Under the pieces are notes generated by a model. That model made no database searches, was not told the DNA's origin, and was given only the letters and a program-made list of their open reading frames with translations. 64,000 nucleotides of DNA from positions 62,001-126,000 of the forward strand of contig JAEINP010000004.1 of the NCBI GenBank assembly GCA_016342355.1, in the 5' to 3' direction. A program made the position numbers and the translations under genes. Of this stretch, positions 22,169 through 47,162 are shown one piece after another. Source of the DNA: Desulfatibacillum sp. (GTDB taxonomy: Bacteria > Desulfobacterota > Desulfobacteria > Desulfobacterales > Desulfatibacillaceae). Within the stretch, counting starts at the first letter, position 1. Each line of letters starts with the position of its first letter.

Positions 22169-23827
22169 TTAATCGATTGCCGCCTGGCTTGGCGCTCCCA
22201 GATTTTGCGCCATGTCTTCCAGATTATTTTTGGCATCCGGGAAACCCGGATCAATTTCCAAAGATTTTTCAAAGCAAGCCCGGGCTTGCCAGTCCAGCCC
22301 CTGCCCTTTTAGCACAAGGCCTAAATTATTGTATGCCTGGACCAAGCGAGGGTTCGACTGAATAGCCATTTTATATTCCATTTCAGCCTGTTGCATATCA
22401 TCCAGTTTTAAGTAGGCATTTCCCAGGTTGAAATGGATGTCTGCAATGAAACCGGAGTCCATTCTTTCCAGCGCCAGGGACAGAGCCTTTCTGTAATGAA
22501 AAATGGCTTTATCGTACAAGCCGTCGTCGATTAGGGCAACGGCGTAATTATTCTGCACAATCATGCTTTCAGGCACATGGCATATGGCTCTGGAAAAAAG
22601 CAGCCGGTCATTGGCCCAATACCGGGATTGTCCCCAGGCAGACAAGCCCAGTATCACCACCCATGCCATGGTCATAGCCCCTATCCATTTCTTGAAACGG
22701 GGTGCGGCCATTATCCATGAATGAACGGTCCAGGCCACGGCCATATATAGGCCCATGAAGGGCAAATAGGCGTACCGGTCTGCCCATGCGGGAAAAAATC
22801 CAACCTGAATCACTCCGATTACAGGGCTCATGCACAGCAAAAACCAAAGCAGCCCCACGGCCTGATGGGGGGACTTTTTAATATTTCTGGCAACCCAGGC
22901 TGTAACAAGAAACAGAACAAGCAAGGCCCCAGCCACATTCCTTATGGAAAGGCTGGATGGAAAAGGCACATACACAGTGGGACCAGCAGAGTAAAAAAAC
23001 TTCCCAAGATAGGTGACCAGGGCCAAAAGGGCATTCTCCAACCTTAGAAGCAAGGGAATACCTTCAAGCAAATTAAGCCCGCCATAGGGAATCCCCGTAA
23101 CAAAAGTCATGATGGTTGTCCCCAAGCTCAGAAAAAGCAGGGGAACTTTTTCCAAAATCAACCAGGACAGGGAAGCCCGGCCAAAATCGGGTTGAACGCC
23201 GCAATTTTGTCCCAAATCCAAACGGCATAAAGGCCAGAAATCAAGGAGCAAAAGGGCCAGGGGCAAAGGGGTGGCCGAGGGTTTGGACATGACGCACAGA
23301 GCAAACAAAAAGAAAACCCCCAGGTAGCGGCCCACTCCTGGTTTTGCCGCATAATAAGCGTAAGTCAATAAGGTTCCCGCCCCAAAAAAACCCGTGAGGA
23401 TGGTTTTCCGTTGGGTCAACCAGCAAAAGGCCTCCAAATTGACAGGATGAACGGCAAACAGAAGAGCTGCAAGGGTGCTGGGCCATAGGGCGCCGGTCAT
23501 TTTTTTTAGGGCCAAAAAAAATAAAATCACGGCCATGGCATGAAAAAACAAACTTGAAAGATGATGTGGCCCGGGATAAGGGCCAAACAAAGTAAAATCC
23601 GCCATGGCGGACAAGGTGGCCATGGGGTGCCAGTAAGTAACCTGGGAAGAGCCAAAGGCATCAAGCGCCCCCTGCCAGCTAAGCCCCTGGTTTACCTGTT
23701 GATTGGAAACAAGGTACCAGGGGTCATCCAGGTTGATGGTTTTGAAAAAGGCCACATGCCAGAACAGCCCAAGGGATAATAGTCCAAGGCACAGGGCGCA
23801 GAGTATGGTGGCAGACCTTTCTCGCAT
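22169..23827 (-). CDS. Multi-pass membrane protein with C-terminal TPRs, paralogue of the next gene
   Basis: A 552-residue protein with the same plan as its neighbour: a signal-anchor-like first helix, INLDDPWYLVSNQQV in the first loop (the paired Asp of GT-C-type enzymes), about ten membrane helices to residue 390, then three or four TPRs (about 410-535). Its TPR block is shorter than that of the downstream paralogue. Protein O-glycosylation or another lipid-linked transfer is a family-based guess. I see no nearby glycan-synthesis genes that would fix the substrate. Confidence 0.74.
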   Translation of the reverse strand: MRERSATILCALCLGLLSLGLFWHVAFFKTINLDDPWYLVSNQQVNQGLSWQGALDAFGSSQVTYWHPMATLSAMADFTLFGPYPGPHHLSSLFFHAMAVILFFLALKKMTGALWPSTLAALLFAVHPVNLEAFCWLTQRKTILTGFFGAGTLLTYAYYAAKPGVGRYLGVFFLFALCVMSKPSATPLPLALLLLDFWPLCRLDLGQNCGVQPDFGRASLSWLILEKVPLLFLSLGTTIMTFVTGIPYGGLNLLEGIPLLLRLENALLALVTYLGKFFYSAGPTVYVPFPSSLSIRNVAGALLVLFLVTAWVARNIKKSPHQAVGLLWFLLCMSPVIGVIQVGFFPAWADRYAYLPFMGLYMAVAWTVHSWIMAAPRFKKWIGAMTMAWVVILGLSAWGQSRYWANDRLLFSRAICHVPESMIVQNNYAVALIDDGLYDKAIFHYRKALSLALERMDSGFIADIHFNLGNAYLKLDDMQQAEMEYKMAIQSNPRLVQAYNNLGLVLKGQGLDWQARACFEKSLEIDPGFPDAKNNLEDMAQNLGAPSQAAID

Positions 23828-33033: not shown

Positions 33034-33462
33034 TCAGTAACGGGGATTCTCGGATTCCCGTTCCTTCTTCTCCTGATGTTTGACGTACTTTCGAATCATT
33101 TCCGAATCGAGTCCTACTGTGTCAACGCAATATCCTCTCGACCAGAAATGATTGCCCCAATAGGGCTTTTGCTTCAACTCGCGAAATCGGTTCAAAACAC
33201 GGATAGCCGTTCGCCCTTTGACCGTGCCCACAAAACCAGAAACAGACACCTTGGGCGGAATCATCACCAGAAGGTGAACATGGTCTATCTGCACGTTCAA
33301 TTCTATAACCTCCGCTCCTTGTTGAGCGGAAAAGGCTCGGACGCAGTTTTCAACCTCATCGGCAATCTTGCCCTTGAGTATTTTGTATCGATACTTGGGC
33401 GTCCAAACTATGTGATACTGGCAATGCCAAATTGTTTGTGATAACTTCTTGAATCGACTCAT
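33034..33462 (-). CDS. tnpA: IS200-like Y1 transposase
   Basis: A 142-residue single-stranded-DNA transposase. It opens with the WHCQYHIVWTPKYRY strand, has the HUH motif H61-V-H63 in QIDHVHLLVMIPP, and the catalytic Tyr126 lies in the helix SEMIRKYVKHQE. Length and motifs are complete, so it is probably active. The ATG has an AAGGAG site. The element lies next to the RAYT pseudogene, itself a related HUH-type transposase. Confidence 0.93.
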   Translation of the reverse strand: MSRFKKLSQTIWHCQYHIVWTPKYRYKILKGKIADEVENCVRAFSAQQGAEVIELNVQIDHVHLLVMIPPKVSVSGFVGTVKGRTAIRVLNRFRELKQKPYWGNHFWSRGYCVDTVGLDSEMIRKYVKHQEKKERESENPRY

Positions 33463-33655: not shown

Positions 33656-35089
33656 GTGGATATGACGAAAATTTCCCTCATTCGATCGCTGCTCTTAATT
33701 CTGACACTGATACTGTTCACGGGATGCGACGACGATTCCGAGACAGCCACTCCACTGGGCGTCGATGCTATCAACCTGATTTTCGTGGTAAGCCCGGATT
33801 TGGCTAACGACCCGCTGGGTGACATCAATTTGACCACAGCCAACCTTAACAAGCAGGGCTTGCAGCGCTCGCTCCTCATGGGCTCGTATCTGAAAGAGCA
33901 TGTGCTGGGGACCACCAACCCAACCAGCATTTCCGTGCTTGAACCCATGACCCACTTGCAAACCGTAAATAATTACCCTGACATGGCGGCAATCGGGTTT
34001 ATTCAGCAGTATGCCCTTCTCAACCAGATCACACTGTTAGGCACTACGGCCAACAGCTTTTCGCTCAATACGGCGTATGCGCCAGGGTCGACGCCCATCG
34101 GAGTTGTTGAGCCAGATCCATATATCCCCGGTTGCCAGGGGCTGGATTTCGATGACGCGAACGGCAATAACCTTGCCCTGGTGACAGGCATCATCCAGGC
34201 AAACGCCCCGGGCTTTTATGTCTTCTCCGCGCCGTGGGAGACCACCAGCGCCCTCCTGGCAAATATCAATAGGATCCATGGGTATAACCTGGATCTGCCA
34301 AAGACCTATAAGGGCCCAAACCATGTCTATATGATCTCCATCTTGCCATCGGGAGACGCCATCCTGCTTACCTTCGACAGCAAACTGACGCCGCCCGCCA
34401 CCTACCCCGTTCTTCCCTCGCCGGTGAACGCTTGTCCGTGCGACCAGCAGGACCCTTTCAACATCACTCGAATCGGAGGGGTTAACGGCGTCGTAATACC
34501 GGCGAACAGCAACGTCAACCAAACGGTTTACCTGATCAGGCACGCAGAGGCGCATCCCGTGGACACTTTTGAAAACGGCAATTATGTGGGTGCGGGCCAA
34601 TGGCGCGCTCTGGCCCTTCCCGACGCTCTGGACGGCAAAATCGATCCCGACCAGGTTTATTCCATCGATCCCGCGCAGTCGTTCTCATATGCCAATTACA
34701 GTTTTTCGTACGTCAGGCCTTCATTAACAGTACTGCCCTATGTCATCGCCAATAATTTGCCTTATAAGCTGGTCGCGGACTTCTATATAGGGTCGGCGAC
34801 CGATACGGTCGAGGCCAAGGCCGCCAGCGACTTTTTCTTTACCGGCGGCAATTTTACCAATCAAACCCTGCTGGTGGCGTGGGAGCATGAACACTATCCA
34901 ACGCTGATAACCGAGCTCCTTAAAAGCTATGCCGGTAACGATCCACCCCCAACGTTAACTTGGGACCAGACCGACTACGATACCATCTGGACCGTGACGC
35001 TCGACGCCCAGGGAAACCTGACCGTGGACAACGCATTGTGTGAAGGCATTGATTCGGCCAGCCTGCCGGCTACAGCGCCTCAATTCTGA
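33656..35089 (+). CDS. Lipoprotein with two histidine-phosphatase-like halves
   Basis: A 477-residue protein with a lipobox LFTGC (Cys24 from the GTG start; an ATG six bases later is an alternative). The C-terminal half has the histidine phosphatase signature YLIRHAEAHP (Arg295, His296) and a second catalytic-type His in WEHEHYP near 410. The N-terminal half repeats the same layout: NLIFVVSPDLAND in place of the RHAE strand, LNKQGLQRSLLM, a PMTHLQT segment, and SAPWETTSALLANI in place of WEHEHYP, but without Arg and His. It is thus probably a tandem duplicate with a catalytically dead first domain. Export to the periplasm or outer surface is expected. The substrate is unknown. It lies in an accessory island. 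Confidence 0.75.
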   Translation: MDMTKISLIRSLLLILTLILFTGCDDDSETATPLGVDAINLIFVVSPDLANDPLGDINLTTANLNKQGLQRSLLMGSYLKEHVLGTTNPTSISVLEPMTHLQTVNNYPDMAAIGFIQQYALLNQITLLGTTANSFSLNTAYAPGSTPIGVVEPDPYIPGCQGLDFDDANGNNLALVTGIIQANAPGFYVFSAPWETTSALLANINRIHGYNLDLPKTYKGPNHVYMISILPSGDAILLTFDSKLTPPATYPVLPSPVNACPCDQQDPFNITRIGGVNGVVIPANSNVNQTVYLIRHAEAHPVDTFENGNYVGAGQWRALALPDALDGKIDPDQVYSIDPAQSFSYANYSFSYVRPSLTVLPYVIANNLPYKLVADFYIGSATDTVEAKAASDFFFTGGNFTNQTLLVAWEHEHYPTLITELLKSYAGNDPPPTLTWDQTDYDTIWTVTLDAQGNLTVDNALCEGIDSASLPATAPQF

Positions 35090-35560: not shown

Positions 35561-36703
35561 TTACAGTCCCATAAATCTTGCCGCCACGATTTTCATAATT
35601 TCGTTTGTGCCTGCGAAAATGGGCAGAATACGGATGTCCCGCATGGCCCGCGCCAGTCCCATTTCCTCCAGCATGGCGGGTTCCCCCACGATGCTGATGG
35701 CCCTGTCAATGGTGCGTTTGGCCAAATCAGTGGTCCAGTATTTCGCCATGGAGACTTCCACCACAACATTTTCATGGGCCATGTGCTCGGCAATGAGTTT
35801 ATCCAGGAAAGTGCGGCCAAGTTTCGCTTCCGTGGCCATTTCCACCAACTCGAACTGGATGGCCTGGAACTTGCTCAGGGGCTTGCCGTTGCGGGTGGTT
35901 TCCTTGCAATACTGGATAATTTTTTCCACCGTCTGTTCCGCGGCAATAACGGCGCCGACGGCGCAAATCAGGCGTTCCTGCTGCAATTTTTGCATCAGGA
36001 TGATAAAACCGCCGCCTTTTTGCCCCAGGAGGTTTTCCTTGGGAATGCGACATTTGGAAAAAAAGAGTTCCGCCGTATCCTGACTGTTGAAGCCCATTTT
36101 GTCCAGATGGCGTCCCCGCTCAAAGCCGGGACGGTCCCCCTCTACTATATATAGAGAGATAGCTTCGTAGGGATTATCCACGGCCGGATCTTTGGCGGCC
36201 ACCACACAGAGTTCTGTGTTGAGACCGTTGGATATAAAGGTTTTGGTCCCGTTGATGATGATGTCGTCCCCATCTTCCACGGCGGTGGTTTGCATGGAAG
36301 AGAGGTCGCTGCCTGTGTCAGGCTCGGTCATCGCAACAGAGGAAATGATATCGCCGGTCACGCAGCCGGGGAGAAATTTCTTCTTCTGCTCTTCGGTTCC
36401 GAAAGTTTCGATATACGGCACCACGATGTCGCTGTGCAGTCCTGTGGTGAGGCCGGAGAATCCTGTCCTGCCGATTTCCTCGGTCATGATGACCGAGTAC
36501 AGGAAATCCAGGCCATGTCCGCCGTATTCTTTAGGTGTGGCGGTGCACAAAAAACCATTCTTGCCCAGGCCTTGCCATGCGCTTTTGGGCACCAGGTGAT
36601 CTTTTTCCCATTGTTCGATATTGGGAATCACATTTTCAGCCAAATAGGCTCGCACCCTTTCGCGAAAAGCGTGGTGTTCCGGGGTGTATTGCAAGATTTC
36701 CAT
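35561..36703 (-). CDS. Acyl-CoA dehydrogenase
   Basis: A 380-residue FAD enzyme that introduces the alpha-beta double bond into acyl-CoA. The VAMTEPDTGSDLSS (about 123-136) and TKTFISNG segments bind FAD and substrate. The C-terminal motif is FAGTNEIMK, with Ala where medium-chain enzymes have the catalytic Glu. Long-chain and isovaleryl types also lack Glu there and use one in the preceding helix (here AAEQTVEK). This suggests long- or branched-chain substrates. It is the last gene of the operon and electrons would go to ETF. Confidence 0.92.
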   Translation of the reverse strand: MEILQYTPEHHAFRERVRAYLAENVIPNIEQWEKDHLVPKSAWQGLGKNGFLCTATPKEYGGHGLDFLYSVIMTEEIGRTGFSGLTTGLHSDIVVPYIETFGTEEQKKKFLPGCVTGDIISSVAMTEPDTGSDLSSMQTTAVEDGDDIIINGTKTFISNGLNTELCVVAAKDPAVDNPYEAISLYIVEGDRPGFERGRHLDKMGFNSQDTAELFFSKCRIPKENLLGQKGGGFIILMQKLQQERLICAVGAVIAAEQTVEKIIQYCKETTRNGKPLSKFQAIQFELVEMATEAKLGRTFLDKLIAEHMAHENVVVEVSMAKYWTTDLAKRTIDRAISIVGEPAMLEEMGLARAMRDIRILPIFAGTNEIMKIVAARFMGL

Positions 36704-36752: not shown

Positions 36753-37070
36753 TTACAAGGAAGCCTTGTAAGGATTTCCTTGGGCGTCAAAGGCGGTGAT
36801 GGAGGAATAGCTTTTCCACTCTTCCTCGTCCATGGTGCAATAAAAGGCCGCTGCCTCATGGGGTTGGACAAGCTGGCCGCCCGGCGGATACACCGTGAGC
36901 AGTTCCACATTCTCCCCGTCCTTTTCCAGAACAAAGCGGCTCGGCGCCCTGACCGGCTCCGCGCCATTATTTATCACATGGATTTCCAGGTTCTGGTCGG
37001 GCAGGTTGCAGCACTTGAACCCGATTACATCTTCCACGCTGGAATTCATGAACACCCTGACTTCAAGCAT
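36753..37070 (-). CDS. Small protein of unknown function in the beta-oxidation operon
   Basis: A protein of 105 residues from the ATG at 37070 (after AAGGGG), or 117 from 37106. I do not recognise the family. It is predicted mainly beta: alternating short strands such as EIHVINNGAEPVRAPSRFVL and VELLTVYPPGGQLVQP suggest a small Ig-like or immunoglobulin-type sandwich of the kind that trims or caps larger enzymes. It is soluble with no signal peptide. It sits between the thiolase and the acyl-CoA dehydrogenase genes on the same strand, so it is probably a component or chaperone of that pathway. Confidence 0.7.
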   Translation of the reverse strand: MLEVRVFMNSSVEDVIGFKCCNLPDQNLEIHVINNGAEPVRAPSRFVLEKDGENVELLTVYPPGGQLVQPHEAAAFYCTMDEEEWKSYSSITAFDAQGNPYKASL

Positions 37071-37131
37071 GCCCCTTGCCTTTTGGTGAAAGGTTCCGGA
37101 CAGCATGGCGCTGCCCGGAACCCCGGATTAA

Positions 37132-38343
37132 CTATCCTTCGTATTTTCCGACTATGGAGATAGCACACACGTTCTGGAACGGGAAGCCGCCCAGATTGTG
37201 GGTGAGGCCAATCTTGGGATCTTCGATCTGGCGGTCCCCGGCCTTGCCGTGGAGTTGCAGATACATTTCATAAAGCATGCGAAGCCCGGAAGCGCCGATG
37301 GGATGGCCAAAACACTTGAGGCCGCCGTCCACCTGACAGGGAACTCCGCCGCCATTGAGGTCATAGAAGCCGTCCAGGACATCCTTGACCGCCTGGCCCC
37401 TTTCGGAGATGTGGAGATCTTCCATGGTCACCAACTCGGTGATGGAAAAACAGTCATGCACTTCCATCATGGAAATTTCTTCCCGGGGGTTGGTGATTCC
37501 GGCTTCCTCGTAAGCCTTGACACTGGCGCGGCTTGTGGTCATGAAATGATCGCCGTCCCAGTCATTGTATCCCACTTCCTCGCCGGAGGACAAGGCCAGT
37601 TGGATGGCCTTGACCGACACGAAATCCTTTTTCCCCAACTTTTTGGCGATTTCAGGCGTGGTGACGATAGCGCAGGCCGATCCGTCAGACACGCCGCAGC
37701 AGTCGAACAATCCCAAGGGGTGGGCGATAATGGGCGAAGCCATAATCTGGTCCACGCTCACTTTCTTGCGAAGGTGGGCTTTGGGGTTCAGAAAGCCGTT
37801 GTCGTGGCTCTTGGCGGAAATATGAGCCATGGCGCGTTTGATGTCCTTGTCCGAAATCTTGTACTTTGCGCCGTAGGCGCTGGCAAGCTGGGCAAAGGAG
37901 CCTGGAGCGGTGAGCATAGGCCACCACTGCCACATCAGGGAGCCGGCATTGGAACCGCCGCCGGGCAGTCCGCCGTAACCGGTGTCCTTAAGTTTTTCCA
38001 CGCCCTGAGCCAAACAGATGTCATAAGCCCCGGAGGCAACGGCGTAAACCGCTCCCCGGAAGGCTTCCGTACCTGTGGCGCAGTAGTTTTCCACCCGGGT
38101 TACCGGGATAAAGGGCAGGCGGAGGGTGGTGGACAGGGGCACTGCCGACTTGCCCACGTTGACCTCGTCCAGGCATGTGCCAAACCAGGCAGCCTGGATT
38201 TCCTTTTTCTCGATTCCCGCGTCTTGTATACATTCCTCAAAAGCTTCCACCATCAGCTCTTCGGCGCCCATGTCCCAACGCTCGCCGAAACGGCTGCAGC
38301 CCATGCCGATGATAGCGACTTTATCTTTAATTCCAGTGGCCAT
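37132..38343 (-). CDS. SCPx-type thiolase
   Basis: A 403-residue thiolase-fold enzyme. The nucleophilic Cys88 lies in ENYCATGTEAFRG. EVHDCFSITELVTME (about 297-311) and CFGHPIGASG near 340 are typical of SCPx/lipid-transfer-protein thiolases, including the aldolase-like Ltp group of steroid side-chain degradation. Either thiolytic or retro-aldol cleavage of a 3-oxo- or 3-hydroxyacyl-CoA is possible. It follows the HMGS-like/DUF35 fusion by 15 bases. Archaeal thiolase, HMG-CoA synthase and DUF35 proteins form one complex, which suggests a physical association here as well. Confidence 0.9.
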   Translation of the reverse strand: MATGIKDKVAIIGMGCSRFGERWDMGAEELMVEAFEECIQDAGIEKKEIQAAWFGTCLDEVNVGKSAVPLSTTLRLPFIPVTRVENYCATGTEAFRGAVYAVASGAYDICLAQGVEKLKDTGYGGLPGGGSNAGSLMWQWWPMLTAPGSFAQLASAYGAKYKISDKDIKRAMAHISAKSHDNGFLNPKAHLRKKVSVDQIMASPIIAHPLGLFDCCGVSDGSACAIVTTPEIAKKLGKKDFVSVKAIQLALSSGEEVGYNDWDGDHFMTTSRASVKAYEEAGITNPREEISMMEVHDCFSITELVTMEDLHISERGQAVKDVLDGFYDLNGGGVPCQVDGGLKCFGHPIGASGLRMLYEMYLQLHGKAGDRQIEDPKIGLTHNLGGFPFQNVCAISIVGKYEG

Positions 38344-38358
38344 GATATGTCCCTCCTG

Positions 38359-41091
38359 TTATTTGACGGTGAACAGTTTATCGATGAGCTGGGATTTCAT
38401 GATGTCGCCCTCGATCTTGAGCTTGCCGGAGTTGAAAGCCGTCATGGGATTCAACTGACCGGTGATCATGGCTACAAAATCAGCGTCTTCCATGATAATC
38501 GTGCAGGTAGCCTTGGCGGCTTTGCCGTCCGCAACCGCGCAAGCCTTATCCTTAACCGTCACGTTCCATTCTCCACCATTGCCGCCGGAAATGCTGAACT
38601 GGAACACCACGTCCACGCCGTCGGCCTTGTCTGCATTGAAGGAGTCGCCCATGCCTGCAAAAATGTCAGCAGGTTTGATTGCGCCGCCCGCCGCCGGAGC
38701 AGCTTCCGCTGCCGGAGCCGCGGGAGGGGAGAGCATGTCAAACATGGCTGTATTGAGGTCGCTGAGTTCCTTGGCACCTTCCATGCTGTTGATGGCGTCC
38801 CAATTGTCGGCGATGTCTTCCAGGGAGGGAGGAGTGTCCCCTTCCCCCAGTTGCACGGCAGGCCCGGTGAAAACGGCTGCCCTGTTAAAGTAACCCATGC
38901 CTGCGTTGAAGATCTGGCCCGATTCCTTGCATTCTTCGCTGCAAAGATACAGCACCATGGGAGAGACGAACTCAGGCTTCATCTTGGCGAAAATCTCGGG
39001 AGGCATGATGTCTTCGGTAAGACGGGATGCCGCCAAAGGCGCCACGGTGTTCACCTTGATATTGTATTTGGCGCCTTCCAATTTCAAGGTGTTCATGAAG
39101 CCCACCAGAGCCATTTTGGCGCTGGAGTAGTTGGTCTGGCCAAAGTTGCCGTAAAGGCCTGCGGCCGAGGTGGTCATGATAATGCGTCCGAAGCCCTGCT
39201 GCTTCATCAGGGTGAATGCGGGCTTGGTCACATTGTATGCCCCATGGAGATGCACAGCCAACACGGCGTTCCAGTTGTCGGGCTCCATCTTGAGGAAGGA
39301 TTTGTCCCGGAGGATACCCGCGTTGTTGATGACAATGTCTATCCTGCCAAAGGCGTCAATAGCGCTTTGAATGATGCCAGCGCCGCCTTCGGGAGTAGCC
39401 ACGTTATCGTAATTGGCGACAGCTTCGCCGCCCATTTCCTTGATTTCGTTGACCACGTTGTCCGCCGGGCTGGCATCACCGGTTCCGGAACCGTCACGGG
39501 AGCCGCCCAGGTCATTGACCACCACTTTGCAGCCGCGTGCGGCCAGTTCCAGGGCATAGGTTCTGCCCAGGCCGCCGCCAGCGCCGGTGATCACGGCAAC
39601 ACGGTCTTTGAAGTTGATCTTATCCATTTCCGCAGCTGCGCCCGGAACCGGAGCGGCTTTCCAAAAATAGTTCTTGAAGCCGCGGTCCTTGTCCCAGGAG
39701 CGAAGGCGGAAGATCATTTTCATGGGCAGGCCCACGCGGAGTTCGTCCTGGTCGCAGTCTGTGAAATCAGCCATCATGCGGCCGCCGCCTTCAAACTGGA
39801 TAAGGCCGTATTTGTTGGGTGGTTCAAAGGACACGGACAGCATGTCAGCAGTGAACGTCTTGATGGTCGCAGGGGTGTCAATAAACTCCTGCTCATCCTG
39901 GCTGTGATGGGCGCCGCATGAGGGATTCACGCAGATATCCATCTTGGGGAACTGCTTGGTTCCGCACTCGCGGCACTTGCCGCCCACCAGACCCAGAAGC
40001 ATTTTGCGTTTGCGCCACAGCACGGTCATGGCGGTCTGGGTTTCCGCTTCAGCGCGGATGCCCATTTCGTTTTCGACCAGGCCGCGGAAAACCAGGTACT
40101 TGGAGTAGTTGTCCACGATCTTTTTGTTGCCGATGGTTCCGGCGAATCCGTCCCGGGGCGCCAGTTCGGCGATTTTGTCCGTGACCTTGAAGACCAGGGC
40201 GTCCACGCCATGGCCGTAGCCAGCTACGACAATGATGTCTCCGGCTTTGGCATTGTCCAGGGCGGAAGCCAACATCACAAAGGGATGGGCCACGCCGCAT
40301 TCCCCGCATTCCTTGTGGAAATTGCTCACCACCTGCTCCGGGGTTGCGCCCAGAGTTTTGGCGATTTTCTTGTGCTCTGCGCCAAAGAAGCAGGGATAGA
40401 CCAGTTTGCTCACGTCGCCGATGGCAACGCCTGCCTTTTCCATGGCGCCCTTAATCGCTTTTGGCAGGAACTGGCTATAGCCCATGTCTCTGGCCCAGCG
40501 TTCTTCCCACACATAGTCAAAACGGTTGTTTGCGCCACGGTAGTGGTCGTTGAAATCATGGGACGCCGAATAGGATCCCAGAAATTCCGCAATGACATTG
40601 TCCCCGTTGCCAACGGCAACCGAGGCGGCGCCATCGCCGAACCACATTTCGTAAAAATACGCGCCCTTGGTTTCCCGCTTATCCGTAGCAGTGACCAGGA
40701 TGTTTTTCTTGTTGCCGCCAGCCACGGCATCCAGGGCCGTGATAAGGGCGGTGGTTCCAGCTTTTTGGGAGCCGGTCACGTCCGTTGCCAGGAGGTCGTC
40801 CTGGAGGTTGAGGGCTTCCTTGATGACGCCTGCGTTTTGCCGATCAGCAAAAGGCAGGGTGGTGGAGGCCAGATACACGGCGTCCAATTTGTTTTTATCC
40901 ATGCCCTTGAGGCAGTCCTGGGAAGCGGAAACAGCCATGGTAAGGGCGTCTTCATCCCAGTTACACATAGACCTTTCGCCCTGAGCCACCACCATGATGG
41001 CTGGTGCGAACCAGCCCATGCTTTGGACGATGGCCATACGGTCCAACCTCAAGCGAGGAATGTATGCTCCATATGAGGTAATGCCTATCAT
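38359..41091 (-). CDS. Four-domain fusion: HMG-CoA-synthase-like, DUF35, short-chain dehydrogenase, SCP2
   Basis: A 910-residue protein. Residues 1-345 are a thiolase-fold HMG-CoA-synthase-like domain. At the nucleophile position of the archaeal ACKAGT motif the sequence is SQKAGT, with Gln109 (codon CAA at 40767-40765) in place of Cys. The usual catalytic Glu in the SES motif is Thr (STTLPF). About 365-480 form a DUF35 zinc ribbon (CRECG and CVNPSCG) plus OB fold. About 495-755 are an SDR with TGAGGGLG and Tyr-x3-Lys in NYSSAK. About 800-910 form an SCP2 sterol-carrier domain after an Ala/Pro linker. Condensation is not expected with Gln109; decarboxylation or a structural role is possible. 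The SDR-SCP2 part is a duplicate of that in the next gene. Confidence 0.88.
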   Translation of the reverse strand: MIGITSYGAYIPRLRLDRMAIVQSMGWFAPAIMVVAQGERSMCNWDEDALTMAVSASQDCLKGMDKNKLDAVYLASTTLPFADRQNAGVIKEALNLQDDLLATDVTGSQKAGTTALITALDAVAGGNKKNILVTATDKRETKGAYFYEMWFGDGAASVAVGNGDNVIAEFLGSYSASHDFNDHYRGANNRFDYVWEERWARDMGYSQFLPKAIKGAMEKAGVAIGDVSKLVYPCFFGAEHKKIAKTLGATPEQVVSNFHKECGECGVAHPFVMLASALDNAKAGDIIVVAGYGHGVDALVFKVTDKIAELAPRDGFAGTIGNKKIVDNYSKYLVFRGLVENEMGIRAEAETQTAMTVLWRKRKMLLGLVGGKCRECGTKQFPKMDICVNPSCGAHHSQDEQEFIDTPATIKTFTADMLSVSFEPPNKYGLIQFEGGGRMMADFTDCDQDELRVGLPMKMIFRLRSWDKDRGFKNYFWKAAPVPGAAAEMDKINFKDRVAVITGAGGGLGRTYALELAARGCKVVVNDLGGSRDGSGTGDASPADNVVNEIKEMGGEAVANYDNVATPEGGAGIIQSAIDAFGRIDIVINNAGILRDKSFLKMEPDNWNAVLAVHLHGAYNVTKPAFTLMKQQGFGRIIMTTSAAGLYGNFGQTNYSSAKMALVGFMNTLKLEGAKYNIKVNTVAPLAASRLTEDIMPPEIFAKMKPEFVSPMVLYLCSEECKESGQIFNAGMGYFNRAAVFTGPAVQLGEGDTPPSLEDIADNWDAINSMEGAKELSDLNTAMFDMLSPPAAPAAEAAPAAGGAIKPADIFAGMGDSFNADKADGVDVVFQFSISGGNGGEWNVTVKDKACAVADGKAAKATCTIIMEDADFVAMITGQLNPMTAFNSGKLKIEGDIMKSQLIDKLFTVK

Positions 41092-41174: not shown

Positions 41175-43286
41175 TTATGCCTTGAACAGTTTTTCAAGAA
41201 TCTGGGATTTCATAACGTCTCCCTCGATCTTGAGCTTGCCGGAAGTATAGGCCTGCATGGGATTCAGGGTCCCGTTTGTCATGGCCATGAAATCCTTGTC
41301 TTCCATGATGATGGTGGTCGTCGGGTTGTCGTGCTTGCCCTTGGAAACCGTACAGGTTTTGTCTTTGACCACGGCATTCCATTCCCCGCCGCCAGGGCCG
41401 GAAATGTTATACTGGAACACGACATCCACGCCGTCCGCTGCTTCGGGCACGAACTTGCTTTCCATCATGTCAAAGGCTTCCGCCGGGCTTGCCGGTCCTG
41501 CAGGAGCAGAGGCAGCGCCGGAAGGAGGCGCCTGGAAGGCCATCATGACATCGCCTACCTGGGCATTGAGTTCAAAATACTCTTTGCCGCCCTTCATGGA
41601 GCCGATCTTGGCCATATTGGCTTTGATATCGTCGCAGGTGGGGATATCATCACCCTGTCCCATGACTGCTCCAGGTCCGGTCACCACGGCGGCCCGATTG
41701 AAAAAGCCCATGCCCACATTGTAGATGCGGCCTGTGACATCGCACTGGTCGGTGCAAAGGTACAGGGTCATGGGGACCACGTATTCGGGTTTGGCCTTGT
41801 TGAAGATTTCTTCGGGCATAATGTCTTCGGTGAGGCGAGAGGCTGCCAGGGGCGCCACGGTGTTCACCTTGACATCGTATTTGTTGCCTTCCAGCTTCAG
41901 GGTATTCATGAAGCCCACCAGAGCCATCTTGGCGGCGGAATAGTTGGTCTGACCAAAGTTGCCGTAAAGGCCTGCAGCCGAAGTGGTCATGATGATACGG
42001 CCGAAACCGTTTTGCTTCATAATCGGGAAGGCGGCCTTGGTCACGTTGTATGCGCCGTTAAGGTGCACGTTCATCACGGCGTTCCAGTTTTCAGGCTCCA
42101 TTTTCAGGAAGGATTTATCCCGGAGGATGCCTGCATTGTTGATGAGAATATCCACCTTGCCAAAGGCGTCCAAAGCGGTTTGCACGACGTTTGCGCCGCC
42201 TTCCGGGGTGGCCACGTTGTCGTAGTTGGCTACTGCCTGGCCGCCTGCGGCCTTGATTTCGTCCACGACGGTGTCGGCTGCACTGGAGCTTGCGCCTGTG
42301 CCGTCCCTGGAGCCGCCCAAGTCATTGACCACCACTTTTGCGCCGCGTTTCGCCAGTTCCAGGGCATAGGCCTTCCCCAGGCCAGCGCCTGCGCCGGTGA
42401 TGATGGCCACACGGTCATCAAAGCGGATCTGCTCTTCCACCACATCGCCGTATTCAAACAGGCCCTGGTCAATGACCACATCGCCGTTCTGCTGATTGAT
42501 CACGCGCCAAACCGCCGTGCCTTCCCCGGTTTTCCAGATGTTGATCTTAAGGGGAATGCCGGGATACAGGGTCTTGGAGAAACGGCACTTGAACCTGCGG
42601 ACCTTTTCGGGCTCGCCGGGGCAAAGGCTGGCAATGAGCGCACGGCATGCATAGCCGTGGGTGCAAAGGCCGTGCATGATGGGCATTTCAAAGCCGGACA
42701 TTTTGGCGAATTCCGGATCTATGTGGAGCACGAACACGTCCCCGGACATCCTGTACAGGAGGGGAGCATTCTTGGAGGGATGCTCCTCTATCACAAAATC
42801 GGGATCCCGGTCCGGGTATTCCACGGCTTCCTTGGGAGGGGCTTCGCCGCCGAATCCGCCGTCCAGACGACCGAACAGGGTGGTTTTGGCGGTGAACAGT
42901 TTTTTGCCCTTGGCGTCTTTGGTCACGCTTTCCCCAATGATGATGGCGCCTTTTTTACCGGCTGCGGCCAAGTCGTAATATTTGGTGACCGCCCCCTCGC
43001 TCACCAGTTTTCCCGAAGTGGGAATGGGCCGGTGAAAAATCAGGTCCTGCTCGCCGTGGAGAAGACCCGCCAGGTTCACGTTGGAGTTTGCTCCGATGTG
43101 GCTTAAAAACTCAAAAACAGCCGCAATGGAAAAACTGGGAATCACCTTGAGGTCTTTCTCGTACACATAGTCGAGTTCATCAAACCCGGCGCCGACACCC
43201 AATGCGTAAAGGACCACATCCTTCCAGGTGTAATCCTTCTCTATCGGGCCGATTTTCTTGCCGATTGCATCCATGTTTAGAGCCAT
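41175..43286 (-). CDS. MFE-2-like multifunctional enzyme: MaoC hydratase, 3-hydroxyacyl-CoA dehydrogenase, SCP2
   Basis: A 703-residue protein. Residues 1-285 are a double hot-dog hydratase 2 domain with LHIDPEFAKMSGF and PIMHGLCTHGYACR as in peroxisomal MFE-2. Asp and His of the catalytic DxNPxH are kept but Asn is Phe (GDVFVLH). Residues about 288-545 are an SDR (TGAGAGLGKAYALEL, VVVNDLGGSRDG, NYSAAK). About 598-703 form an SCP2 lipid-carrier domain. The domain order differs from animal MFE-2 (SDR, hydratase, SCP2). It should perform R-specific hydration and dehydrogenation in beta-oxidation. It is the first enzyme gene behind the TetR gene, with a GGAGG site. Confidence 0.9.
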   Translation of the reverse strand: MALNMDAIGKKIGPIEKDYTWKDVVLYALGVGAGFDELDYVYEKDLKVIPSFSIAAVFEFLSHIGANSNVNLAGLLHGEQDLIFHRPIPTSGKLVSEGAVTKYYDLAAAGKKGAIIIGESVTKDAKGKKLFTAKTTLFGRLDGGFGGEAPPKEAVEYPDRDPDFVIEEHPSKNAPLLYRMSGDVFVLHIDPEFAKMSGFEMPIMHGLCTHGYACRALIASLCPGEPEKVRRFKCRFSKTLYPGIPLKINIWKTGEGTAVWRVINQQNGDVVIDQGLFEYGDVVEEQIRFDDRVAIITGAGAGLGKAYALELAKRGAKVVVNDLGGSRDGTGASSSAADTVVDEIKAAGGQAVANYDNVATPEGGANVVQTALDAFGKVDILINNAGILRDKSFLKMEPENWNAVMNVHLNGAYNVTKAAFPIMKQNGFGRIIMTTSAAGLYGNFGQTNYSAAKMALVGFMNTLKLEGNKYDVKVNTVAPLAASRLTEDIMPEEIFNKAKPEYVVPMTLYLCTDQCDVTGRIYNVGMGFFNRAAVVTGPGAVMGQGDDIPTCDDIKANMAKIGSMKGGKEYFELNAQVGDVMMAFQAPPSGAASAPAGPASPAEAFDMMESKFVPEAADGVDVVFQYNISGPGGGEWNAVVKDKTCTVSKGKHDNPTTTIIMEDKDFMAMTNGTLNPMQAYTSGKLKIEGDVMKSQILEKLFKA

Positions 43287-43376: not shown

Positions 43377-44066
43377 CTATTCCGAAGTTTTGATGTCTTT
43401 CATGCCTTGTCCAAAGGCAGGCACCATAATAAAAGCCAGGGTTTCCTTGACCATCTTCACGTAGTCCTCGTGGTCCACATCCAACAAAATCTTAAAAAAA
43501 CTTTCCCCCGATATGAAATTGTGGATAGAGTTCATTAACGCGAGCATTTTTATTTTTGCGTCAACGGGAACAGATTTCCGGTCTTTCACCAGCCCCATGG
43601 AATAGGCGATATTACCCATAGTTTCAGGAACTTTTACTTCCAGGACTGATTCGCTCCGGGTTTTTGCGAAGTAACGGAACAGGGTAAGATTGGAGATCTC
43701 GGGATTATCGAACAAATAATCTGTCATGATATCCAGGGCGATCTTGAGGCGATCGGACAGGGGTTTGCCATGGATGAGTTTTTCCACTTCCACCAATTTG
43801 GACCGCAAGTCCTCGAAGATATCCTGAACCACGGCTTCGTAAAGATCGCCTTTTTCACCCCAATGATAATACAGGGTGGAAATGTCAATGCCCACCTTTT
43901 GGGCGATCATACGCGTGGTAGTGCCGTGAAAACCATATTCTCCGAATATTTTTCGGGCGTCGCGAAGGATTCTGCCTTTCATGGACGAGGGGTCTTTGCG
44001 CGCCTTTTCTAGTGCTGTCAGCAGGGTTACAGCTCCTTTGTCTGGATGTAATGAAGTATTAGGCAT
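43377..44066 (-). CDS. TetR-family transcriptional regulator
   Basis: A 229-residue regulator from the ATG at 44066. The HTH is in ILRDARKIFGEYGFHGTTTR followed by MIAQKVGIDISTLYYHWGEK (about residues 33-72), and the rest is an all-helical ligand domain. A perfect 18-base palindrome ends at the base before this ATG, making autorepression likely; the frame reaches 44135 but that start would lie inside or beyond the operator. It lies 90 bases upstream of the MFE-2-like gene on the same strand, so it probably controls the 43286-35561 operon with acyl-CoA as effector. The ribosome site is weak. Confidence 0.85.
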   Translation of the reverse strand: MPNTSLHPDKGAVTLLTALEKARKDPSSMKGRILRDARKIFGEYGFHGTTTRMIAQKVGIDISTLYYHWGEKGDLYEAVVQDIFEDLRSKLVEVEKLIHGKPLSDRLKIALDIMTDYLFDNPEISNLTLFRYFAKTRSESVLEVKVPETMGNIAYSMGLVKDRKSVPVDAKIKMLALMNSIHNFISGESFFKILLDVDHEDYVKMVKETLAFIMVPAFGQGMKDIKTSE

Positions 44067-44084
44067 TTCCGTTTTAGAACGGAA
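44067..44084. promoter_or_regulatory. Palindromic operator at the TetR start
   Basis: TTCCGTTTTAGAACGGAA has perfect 7-base arms around TTAG, directly before the TetR ATG. Related half-sites recur about 60 bases upstream (minus-strand CCGTTCTGATATTCCGTTTT, about 44154-44135). It is probably the regulator's own operator. Confidence 0.6.
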
Positions 44085-44602
44085 TTTGCCAAGCGGAACG
44101 TGCCTGCCCTTCCCTCCAGGGGCCTGCTTTTCCACACAAAACGGAATATCAGAACGGCCAATTCCAATAAGGTGCTTCCATCAAGCGTTGGAGACTTTGG
44201 TATGCAGGAAAACCAACCTATGTGTCAAGCAAATAATTACGCCCTAGTCATGTGAAAAAAATAACTTTTGATCGAATGGAAGAATTCCATGGAATTACGC
44301 AATCCTAAGAATTTTGAAATATTATGTGAAGTCTTTCACATAAAACCAAACACGGAGACAACAGCTACTTGTTCTTGTTAGGTCGGCGTCAGCCGCTCGG
44401 ATAATTGATGGTCTAAGGTCTCGGGAGAGCAAATCAGACAAACTATGGAGAGTTTGAGGATCCGTATTGATAACGGGCGGAGGTGTCGTCGAAAATTGAT
44501 ATACGCCACAGGTAAAGATATGGTTAGGGGAAAATGAGAATATATGAGAGGGGCGCGCCTGAAATTTCCGCCAATGGGCAACGGGCTTGAAATTAATGTC
44601 GA
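44085..44602. other. AT-rich intergenic region
   Basis: Between the TetR gene and the GAF-domain gene, both on the minus strand. Apart from the second CCGTT half-sites near 44135-44154, I see no gene, repeat family or clear terminator; short hairpins such as GTGAAGTCTTTCAC (about 44325) are unremarkable. Confidence 0.4.
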
Positions 44603-45752: not shown

Positions 45753-45857
45753 TGCTTGATAGACGGTTCGGTCAATACTGGAAATTGTACCTGGCACGCA
45801 CTCTCCAGACACCCTGTTCACACCTTGGCCTTGGATCCCTATACCGGAGGAAAAATC

Positions 45858-47162
45858 ATGAAGAAACACCCCATCGTATTGACCTTTGCGGCCCTCATTG
45901 CGGTTCTGCTGCTCGCAGCGCCCGGCGCCTTCGCCATGGGCCCCCGCCCCACGTGGCCTGAACAACACACCATTGATTACGACCATGTCATGCGCGATGG
46001 ACTGGGCGGCTGGAATATCATGCAAGACGATTACCGGGCCTTCAATCTCCTGGACGGACTGTCCCTGGAGTGGGACTACTATTCCTTCCATGATAACGAC
46101 GGCAAGTTCACCGGCGTGGTGGGCATTGTGGTGGCTGACCCCGAAGGCAAACTGGGGGGCAGCGAAACCTTTTCCGCGTTGAATCTCATGCCTTCGGGCG
46201 TGAACTTCGCCTTTTACGGCAAATTCGCCGATGGCGAACCTTTCGCCACATATATTCCCACGGGGTTGGGTCATGAGGTGGGTGTGGATGAACGGTCCGT
46301 GTTCGCCACCGGAGACAACGGCACATTCATCCAGGAGATCCCGGTCCGCGGAACCAATGGCGAGCCCGATTCCATCATCCTCCGGGGCAACAGCGGAGAC
46401 TACTCCTGGGATCTTACCGTAAAACAGGGTTTCACCGATTATGCGCCTCTCAAACCCGAAACCTGGCTCGTGGGCAATGACACCAACACCCTGCTTGCCG
46501 ATGAACACTGGACCGTGAACATGCTGTGGCCCACCACCGAAGTGCAGGGCGCCATCACCAATCTCGCCACCGGCGAGGTGGTGACCATTGACGGACACGG
46601 ATACCGGGAAAACTCTTTTGGAAGATGGGCCTTTGTCATGGGCGGCTGGGATTTCGCCTTCATGTCCGACCCGGAAACCCATGTGCAGTGGGCCTTCCAG
46701 ACCTACCATTTTGACACCGAGGACCTGGATTATGTGGACGTGGACTTCCTGGACAACGGCAATCCCGTGGTTCAAAGATTCCACGTCAAGGACGGGGAAC
46801 TGGGATGGACCCATGGAGACTGGCAGTGGGACGAGGCTGCGCGCCAGTATACTCCCACCGATTTGACAGTGATCGGCAAAAACGACCAATACACGGTGGA
46901 AGCCTATGTGAACATCGGGACCAATTACGCCCCCATGCTTTCGGACGTGACCTTTATTGTCAACACCTATTGCATCTTCGCCCAAATGCCCTGGATTTCA
47001 GGGACCGTCAAACGCACAGCGACCGGCGAAGTGGTGGCTACCTTTGACGGCCAGGGCGGCGGTGAATTTTCGGTCATGCGGAGCTTTTGCGCCAACGAAC
47101 CAAACCTGGACCTGAAAAAACACATCTTTACTCAGACATTTTCCAACCCAATGCCTGAATAA
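45858..47162 (+). CDS. Secreted AttH/CrtC-like (lipocalin-fold) protein
   Basis: A 434-residue protein with a clear signal peptide (MKKHPIV then a hydrophobic core ending APGAFA, cut near residue 22). It is rich in Trp, Tyr and Asp. The GHGYRENSFGRWAF segment near residue 246 resembles the GHGYHDHNWG motif of AttH/CrtC hydratase-like lipocalin domains, with changed residues at the centre; the family assignment is moderate. Start at 45858 after GGAGG. It is monocistronic, with twin palindromes upstream and a strong terminator downstream, which suggests tight regulation and high expression. A role in lipid or terpenoid binding is only a guess. Confidence 0.7.
   Translation: MKKHPIVLTFAALIAVLLLAAPGAFAMGPRPTWPEQHTIDYDHVMRDGLGGWNIMQDDYRAFNLLDGLSLEWDYYSFHDNDGKFTGVVGIVVADPEGKLGGSETFSALNLMPSGVNFAFYGKFADGEPFATYIPTGLGHEVGVDERSVFATGDNGTFIQEIPVRGTNGEPDSIILRGNSGDYSWDLTVKQGFTDYAPLKPETWLVGNDTNTLLADEHWTVNMLWPTTEVQGAITNLATGEVVTIDGHGYRENSFGRWAFVMGGWDFAFMSDPETHVQWAFQTYHFDTEDLDYVDVDFLDNGNPVVQRFHVKDGELGWTHGDWQWDEAARQYTPTDLTVIGKNDQYTVEAYVNIGTNYAPMLSDVTFIVNTYCIFAQMPWISGTVKRTATGEVVATFDGQGGGEFSVMRSFCANEPNLDLKKHIFTQTFSNPMPE

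Follow-up and report, generated by a model that had tools for sequence, protein, structure and literature searches.

A four-domain fusion protein and its relatives

The window analyzed here is a 64,000 nt stretch of DNA from Desulfatibacillum sp. (assembly GCA_016342355.1, contig JAEINP010000004.1, positions 62,001 to 126,000 of the forward strand; the coordinates below are those of the window), and the subject is a gene found at 38359..41091 on the minus strand. A preliminary description, made from the letters of the sequence, had recognized in it a four-domain fusion that joins a domain like 3-hydroxy-3-methylglutaryl-CoA (HMG-CoA) synthase (HMGS) to DUF35, short-chain dehydrogenase/reductase (SDR) and SCP2 domains, and this was confirmed, the gene being one open reading frame (ORF) of 910 residues with matches to these families. 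The HMGS-like domain, termed pseudo-HMGS below, has other residues at its catalytic positions, and together with DUF35 it probably forms a frame for the thiolase encoded by the next gene. The features of the fusion protein are:

38359..41091, minus strand: four-domain fusion protein (pseudo-HMGS, DUF35, SDR, SCP2), 910 aa, single ORF with an ATG start
40057..41091, minus strand: HMG-CoA-synthase-like domain, residues 1-345; catalytic Glu, Cys, His and Asn positions all replaced
40765..40767, minus strand: Gln109 codon CAA, at the nucleophilic Cys position by alignment to archaeal HMGS
39637..40056, minus strand: DUF35 domain (zinc ribbon and OB fold), residues about 346-485; ChsH2/DUF35 match 408-462
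38872..39618, minus strand: SDR domain, residues about 492-740; family match spans 497-685
38371..38676, minus strand: SCP2 lipid-carrier domain, residues about 806-907; family match spans 820-907

Domains of the window proteins were called with Pfam and NCBIfam. The archaeal HMG-CoA synthase model PRK04262 covers residues 1-339 (E 1.5e-54), scoring under its curated cut-off, and the closest NCBIfam models for this N-terminal domain are HMG-CoA synthases, again with both scores under the cut-off (NF003274, 185.3 of 244 bits; TIGR00748, 128.4 of 353.35 bits). A four-Cys zinc ribbon lies immediately N-terminal to the OB (oligonucleotide/oligosaccharide-binding) fold of DUF35, and its Cys373, Cys376, Cys387 and Cys392 are kept in all 85 fusion-clade and all 10 unfused sequences of the alignment described below. 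The SDR part is nearest to the (3R)-hydroxyacyl-CoA dehydrogenase of peroxisomal MFE-2, its best sequence matches among solved structures being 2et6, 1gz6, 1zbq and 3oml, and since Ser642, Tyr655 and Lys659 are present in 79 of the 79 rows covering them, this domain is probably active. An AlphaFold2 model of the fusion, from a 60-row family alignment, has a mean pLDDT of 84.6 and a pTM of 0.65. The best match in a fold search with the HMGS-like domain (residues about 1-341) was archaeal HMGS (6esq_I, Z 47.1, 338 residues, 1.8 Å), followed by the Phl proteins of Chromobacterium (9skh_C, Z 44.9) and Pseudomonas (5mg5_A, 43.8) and by MucABC (9vbo_B, 42.4), with ordinary HMG-CoA synthases (37.9) and FabH enzymes (~37) lower down. 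PhlA, archaeal and MucABC chains also head the sequence search.

Relatives were taken from 59 near genomes, of which 29 yielded a match, in some cases a weak one, and from GTDB representatives, where 210 of 216 candidate stretches were confirmed and the best 80 were used as loci. Seven of the 109 alignment rows, with fewer than 400 aligned residues (contig-cut or split pieces), were dropped, and the removal of seven duplicates from the remaining 102 left 95 distinct rows, comprising a fusion clade of 85 (window included) and 10 unfused HMGS-DUF35 proteins. A wider set of 31 unfused relatives, which overlaps partly with the 10, reaches down to about 29% identity, and none of these has an SDR in the same frame. 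The rows were retrieved with pseudo-HMGS/DUF35 as query, so the opposite loss, in which pseudo-HMGS is gone and the SDR is kept, would escape notice. All four domains are present in 64 of the 85 fusion-clade rows, seven are complete without SCP2, three are complete without SDR and SCP2, one stops inside the SDR and a contig end truncates the other 10. Across the class, 98 of 241 genomes gave some match at E 0.001 (several weak, and to the DUF35 or HMGS parts alone), and this wide spread argues for a general role.

The preliminary description had proposed looking for the same fusion in other genomes and had called it a new combination. It recurs in many genomes, and the claim of novelty stands only for the literature: no paper describing the fusion was found among open-licence sources, but in genomes it is common. 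It is a variant of the thiolase/DUF35/HMGS complex type that is frequent in Desulfobacterota and, as far as the open-licence literature shows, undescribed. The genome of the window (G000) additionally encodes a second, unfused HMGS-DUF35 protein (contig C114, about 22350-23798; L003, L039), which is 49% identical and has Ile at the position of Gln109; its gene is flanked by genes for an SDR and a thiolase, and adjoins acyl-CoA dehydrogenase genes.

Replacement of the catalytic positions

The window motif TGSQKAGT aligns with FACKAGT of archaeal HMGS, with Gln109 at the nucleophilic Cys, and the Glu of the archaeal SES motif corresponds to Thr77 in the STT of the window protein. Both of these replacements, Gln109 (CAA) at the nucleophile position and the loss of the Glu in STTLPF, had been noticed beforehand and are borne out by the alignment. 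The His and Asn positions of HMGS, which we take to be catalytic, are occupied by Pro233 and Glu264. When residues 1-345 were aligned with archaeal HMGS, as had been suggested, no other Cys fell at the nucleophile site, and a shift of the alignment that would supply a different nucleophile was rejected as a general answer, since Cys108 occurs in only two of the 85 fusion-clade rows, one of the 10 unfused rows and two of the wider 31. The genome G001, of the same genus and 93% identical in this part, likewise reads SQKAGT, and because of this and the recurrence of the fusion in many genomes, Gln109 is unlikely to be a sequencing slip.

A genuine HMG-CoA synthase, or some other condensing enzyme that has been misaligned, is a reading that fits the identity of the closest NCBIfam models, but both scores lie under the curated cut-offs, no readable row (85 fusion-clade, 10 and 31 unfused) has Cys at position 109, Cys108 is rare, and other residues take the place of Glu, His and Asn too. 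The protein has the fold of HMGS and lacks the catalytic Glu, Cys and His (Thr77, Gln109, Pro233) and the curated score of that family, and we regard this reading as hardly credible. Over the whole genome, four places match TIGR00748, none above its cut-off. The name HMG-CoA synthase is very probably wrong for such proteins in many anaerobes.

In the family as a whole, site 109 is filled by at least seven different residues, Gln among them. The fusion clade has Gln in 56 rows, Leu in 19, Ile in four, Glu in two, and Met, Ala and Val in one each, with one row unread, while the 10 unfused rows have Leu (5), Met (2), Ile (2) and Ala (1), and the 31 wider relatives Leu (23), Val (3), Met (2), Ile (1), Gln (1) and Ala (1). 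Two of the seven short rows that were dropped are readable here, and have Ile and Gln. The aligned residue is Cys in archaeal HMGS, Gly in PhlA and Glu in the HMGS-like chain of MucABC. Within the fusion clade, position 77 is Thr in 84 of 85 rows, position 233 is Pro in 84 and Ala in one, and position 264 is Glu in 81 and otherwise Asp or Gln; in the wider unfused set of 31, position 109 is never Cys, position 77 never Glu and position 233 never His. Of the 345 positions of the HMGS domain, 254 are better conserved than position 109. With that column removed, a tree of the 95 rows (a quick one, with a simple model, no bootstrap and a warning that two long unfused branches meet) requires at least 13 changes at the site, and the five rows that group with the window and G001 have Ile (four) or Ala (one).

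This variation bears directly on the proposal, made in the preliminary description by analogy with KSQ domains, that the fusion decarboxylates, with Gln109 stabilizing an enolate and the domain acting on malonyl- or acyl-CoA-type substrates. Gln is the commonest residue at the nucleophile position in the fusion clade (and is found in one of the 31 unfused relatives), and a FabH C112Q structure is among the fold matches listed. However, 29 of the 85 rows do not show Gln (28 have another residue and one is unread), including the group around the window genus with its four Ile and one Ala, the large Leu set has the same thiolase neighbor (see later), and Pro and Glu stand in place of the His and Asn. 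A catalytic residue would not vary as site 109 does. The first hallmark of KSQ, a conserved Gln, is therefore lacking, and the active-site His that KSQ domains retain is missing too. The decarboxylase was rejected on these grounds: the Gln is not conserved among orthologues with the same thiolase neighbor, and we consider the proposal very unlikely. Since it is not conserved, Gln109 is unlikely to do chemistry, and its presence would mislead readers toward a KSQ enzyme. One unfused relative (L049; G035, contig C95) has Gln at this site, and Gln is therefore not tied to the fusion.

Several pocket positions hardly vary within the fusion clade, namely Cys234 (85/85), His259 (83/85), Cys262 (82/85), Glu264 (81/85) and His269 (85/85). 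These could be the new catalytic set of an enzyme repurposed for another acyl-CoA reaction, a change with a precedent in the steroid aldolases that reuse the thiolase fold, such as Sal as it is described in passages of PMC12329534. The positions vary, though, in unfused relatives that keep the thiolase neighbor, where Cys234 occurs in 12 of 31 and His269 in 11 of 31, so that a family-wide role does not need Cys234 or His269; the relative PhlA, moreover, has no direct part in acyl transfer, according to the parts of PMC6392133 that deal with it. Repurposing is rather unlikely on this evidence. Cys234 taken singly as the new nucleophile, invariant in the fusion clade and found in just 12 of the 31 unfused relatives, is retained only as a rival.

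With all four catalytic positions replaced, the domain might equally be pictured as a decaying remnant, neutral baggage on a working dehydrogenase. Against this, 65 of its 345 positions are near invariant across the fusion clade, and the three orthologues without SDR and SCP2 retain pseudo-HMGS and DUF35 beside a thiolase. Neutral decay was rejected on the conservation of the domain, and is extremely improbable.

Gene cluster and presumed thiolase partner

The fusion gene is part of a same-strand series in the order TetR, MaoC/SDR/SCP2, fusion, thiolase, small protein and acyl-CoA dehydrogenase, a cluster of beta-oxidation type that is conserved among the loci. The neighboring genes are:

43377..44135, minus strand: TetR-family regulator upstream of the MaoC/SDR/SCP2 gene (family match)
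41175..43286, minus strand: MaoC-type hydratase/SDR/SCP2 protein (MFE-2-like), 703 aa (family matches)
37132..38343, minus strand: SCP2-type thiolase, 403 aa, presumed catalytic partner (Cys88, His296, Cys344, His347)
36753..37106, minus strand: small 117-residue protein between thiolase and acyl-CoA dehydrogenase (no Pfam or NCBIfam match)
35561..36703, minus strand: acyl-CoA dehydrogenase, 380 aa (family matches)

The window thiolase scores above the cut-off of NF004810 (704.7 against 403 bits) and does not reach that of the BbsB equivalog NF053628 (141.7 against 750 bits). Its Cys88, His296, Cys344 and His347, which presumably have the roles they have in other thiolases, are kept where covered in 84 of 84, 78 of 78, 77 of 78 and 78 of 78 cases, respectively, as counted among matches of at least 45% identity from loci L039-L138.

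Among the 80 loci, a thiolase gene is directly downstream of the fusion in 62 of the 64 that are testable. Sorted by the residue at 109, the thiolase neighbor is present in 14 of 14 testable loci with Leu, one of one with Glu and 42 of 44 with Gln, and the Ile and Val loci (L042, L065, L070 and L046) have it also. The MaoC gene precedes the fusion in 69 of 74 testable loci; in two of the five misses a contig end falls inside the gene (L075, L094), in L100 there is an SDR part only, in L104 a split fusion frame upset the distance, and L096 is real. All 31 unfused relatives have a same-strand downstream thiolase, 30 of them within 200 bases and one, a weak match, at 760 bases.

The distances between frames (pseudo-HMGS/DUF35) and those between their thiolases are correlated, with r 0.79 over 33 unfused pairs, a value reached in none of 2000 permutations. 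Three loci that duplicate L043, L044 and L045 were left out of these distances and of the SDR comparison given below as copies, and the distances were also taken without L059, L065 and L070, which are of the fusion type, so that the 33 unfused pairs are unaffected. When pairs from one genome are compared, the thiolases resemble each other more than the frames do in 11 of 12 cases, as expected for an enzyme compared with a frame; the exception involves the weak, distant thiolase of L153.

Relatives of the small protein of 36753-37106 are found downstream of the thiolase in L041, L042, L065, L070, L108, L114, L120, L134 and L136. The SDRs of the two adjacent genes in the window (41175-43286 and 38359-41091) are 78% identical to each other, and in eight of 65 loci the SDR of the fusion is nearest to that of its own neighbor, at up to 93% (e.g., L098, L127, L129 and L061), which suggests repeated gene conversion between the neighboring SDRs. 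Further out, an IS200-like transposase (Y1_Tnp) is located at 33034-33462, and the proteins encoded at 33656-35089 and 45756-47162 (477 and 468 residues) have no Pfam match and seem to be exported, judging by eye from their N-terminal parts.

A proposed thiolase frame compared with known systems

The data on this locus comprise four catalytic replacements, a Gln109 that is not conserved, the fold and the synteny, thiolase and SDR motifs that are intact, and the co-variation of frame and thiolase. On these we think it likely that pseudo-HMGS/DUF35 is the frame of a thiolase complex, that the thiolase alone performs the C-C chemistry, and that the frame carries the dehydrogenase and SCP2. The other proposal of the preliminary description, a non-catalytic scaffold for the adjacent thiolase, is thus the one that gains support, from fold, synteny and co-variation and from what passages of the literature report on PhlA and PhlC; the two proteins would then be in contact. 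The N-terminal domain would be a pseudoenzyme, and with DUF35 would make up a frame of the type seen in archaeal thiolase/HMGS complexes and PhlACB, in which DUF35 would bridge pseudo-HMGS and the thiolase of the next gene. The frame may contribute to the cavity in which the thiolase binds CoA, and the thiolase would act via Cys88.

Read from the protein families, the pathway would begin with dehydrogenation of an acyl-CoA by the acyl-CoA dehydrogenase and its hydration by the MaoC part to a (3R)-hydroxyacyl-CoA, which an SDR would oxidize before cleavage by the thiolase. The last two steps of beta-oxidation would thereby take place in one assembly, with earlier ones supplied by the MaoC/SDR/SCP2 protein and the acyl-CoA dehydrogenase, and the SCP2 domain in the frame could bind the acyl chain. 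We infer a physical complex, a hand-over of substrate within it and a task in acyl-CoA beta-oxidation, perhaps of methyl-branched chains. Hydrocarbon-degrading relatives make methyl-branched acyl-CoAs, and a peroxisome-like set of enzymes may therefore be useful.

A number of observations weigh against this picture. The SDR/SCP2 tail is not always kept, with three complete orthologues lacking both domains and seven lacking SCP2, and the MaoC/SDR/SCP2 neighbor already encodes an SDR and an SCP2 domain. Two fusions (L089 and L096) have no adjoining thiolase, the frame of L089 stopping within the SDR. A TetR gene was found in 37 of 47 testable loci, counted anywhere in the locus and on either strand, and an acyl-CoA dehydrogenase lies no more than 5 kb downstream in just 27 of 40. 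The nearest frame and the nearest thiolase come from the same locus in only 17 of the 33 unfused pairs, and co-variation of neighboring genes comes partly from shared descent, so the correlation supports a lasting pair and is no proof of contact. Asn is kept at position 264 in eight of the 31 unfused relatives, which fits less well, and the near-invariant Cys234, His269 and Cys262 leave room for a repurposed reaction.

As to the tail, the three orthologues that lack SDR and SCP2 lie inside the fusion clade on the tree and in the same gene cluster; therefore frame and thiolase can persist when the tail is lost, and this marks pseudo-HMGS, DUF35 and thiolase as the apparent core.

If the complex exists, it is a case of a condensing enzyme converted into a frame by which a thiolase is joined to the dehydrogenase acting before it, and it offers a model, open to test, of how substrate is handed over in anaerobic fatty-acid or hydrocarbon degradation. 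Many natural variants are available for such tests, since the family varies both at the dead site (Gln, Leu, Ile, Glu and other residues) and in the presence of SDR/SCP2. More tentatively, and with somewhat less than even confidence, we suggest that sulfate-reducing and syntrophic Desulfobacterota own a distinct (3R) beta-oxidation machine, in which the thiolase would dock on a dead HMGS with DUF35 whose chain also bears the dehydrogenase and lipid-carrier domains, so that 3-hydroxyacyl-CoA would be oxidized and cleaved without being released.

The archaeal acetoacetyl-CoA thiolase/DUF35/HMGS complex (PDB 6ESQ, 6ET9) gives the best fold match and, like the window, combines DUF35 with a thiolase encoded alongside, but its HMGS is active, with Cys and Glu kept, its chains are separate and it has no SDR or SCP2. 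Passages of PMC12329534 describe a DUF35 scaffold that joins thiolase with HMGS or PhlA, and a CoA site shared within the archaeal thiolase/HMGS complex.

With the PhlA type the window protein shares an HMGS-like fold without Cys and Glu, a zinc-ribbon DUF35 partner and a thiolase with a catalytic Cys encoded alongside. PhlACB (5M3K, 5MG5, 9SKH) and MucABC (9VBO, 9VBT) likewise have an HMGS-like chain without Cys and Glu and a high fold match, and PhlACB has a DUF35 subunit and a catalytic thiolase-like subunit. In the relevant parts of PMC6392133, PhlA is reported to have Gly115 instead of Cys and Cys83 instead of Glu, acyl transfer to involve residues of PhlC only, and a functional Phl enzyme to require co-expression of all three genes; an excerpt of PMC12955522 also ascribes the activity of PhlACB mainly to PhlC. 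PhlACB and MucABC differ in having separate subunits, whereas the window protein has DUF35 on the same chain, with SDR and SCP2 in addition, and Phl complexes transfer acyl groups to phenols, whereas the thiolase partner in the window is of a different, beta-oxidation-like kind.

Other DUF35 systems share parts of this plan. Benzoylsuccinyl-CoA thiolase BbsAB (7PXP) is a DUF35-associated thiolase, but the window thiolase does not reach the BbsB equivalog score, and the passages of PMC12329534 on BbsAB mention no HMGS-like part. According to the same excerpts (PMC12329534), DUF35 can also link a hydratase to a thiolase-fold aldolase, and the Sal retroaldol reaction uses Tyr302 and Cys304. In these complexes (ChsH1-ChsH2-Ltp2 and CtShy-CtSal) DUF35 holds a thiolase-fold enzyme together with the enzyme that acts one step earlier, as proposed for the window, but the tied enzyme is a hydratase and not a dehydrogenase, the thiolase fold does retroaldol cleavage, and an HMGS-like part is not mentioned in those passages (PMC12329534).

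The KSQ loading domains of polyketide synthases share with the window a Gln in place of the nucleophilic Cys. In KSQ domains that Gln is conserved and the His residues are retained, unlike the window family, which has neither the conserved Gln nor the His. Peroxisomal MFE-2 and SCPx are alike in SDR kinship, the SCP2 domain and an SCP2-type thiolase, but the MFE-2 layout is that of the neighbor gene at 41175-43286 and not that of the fusion; MFE-2 carries a hydratase, without HMGS or DUF35. If the (3R) machine suggested for Desulfobacterota is real, its architecture stands apart from FadAB, the mitochondrial trifunctional protein and MFE-2/SCPx, with an enzyme of the mevalonate pathway turned into a frame.

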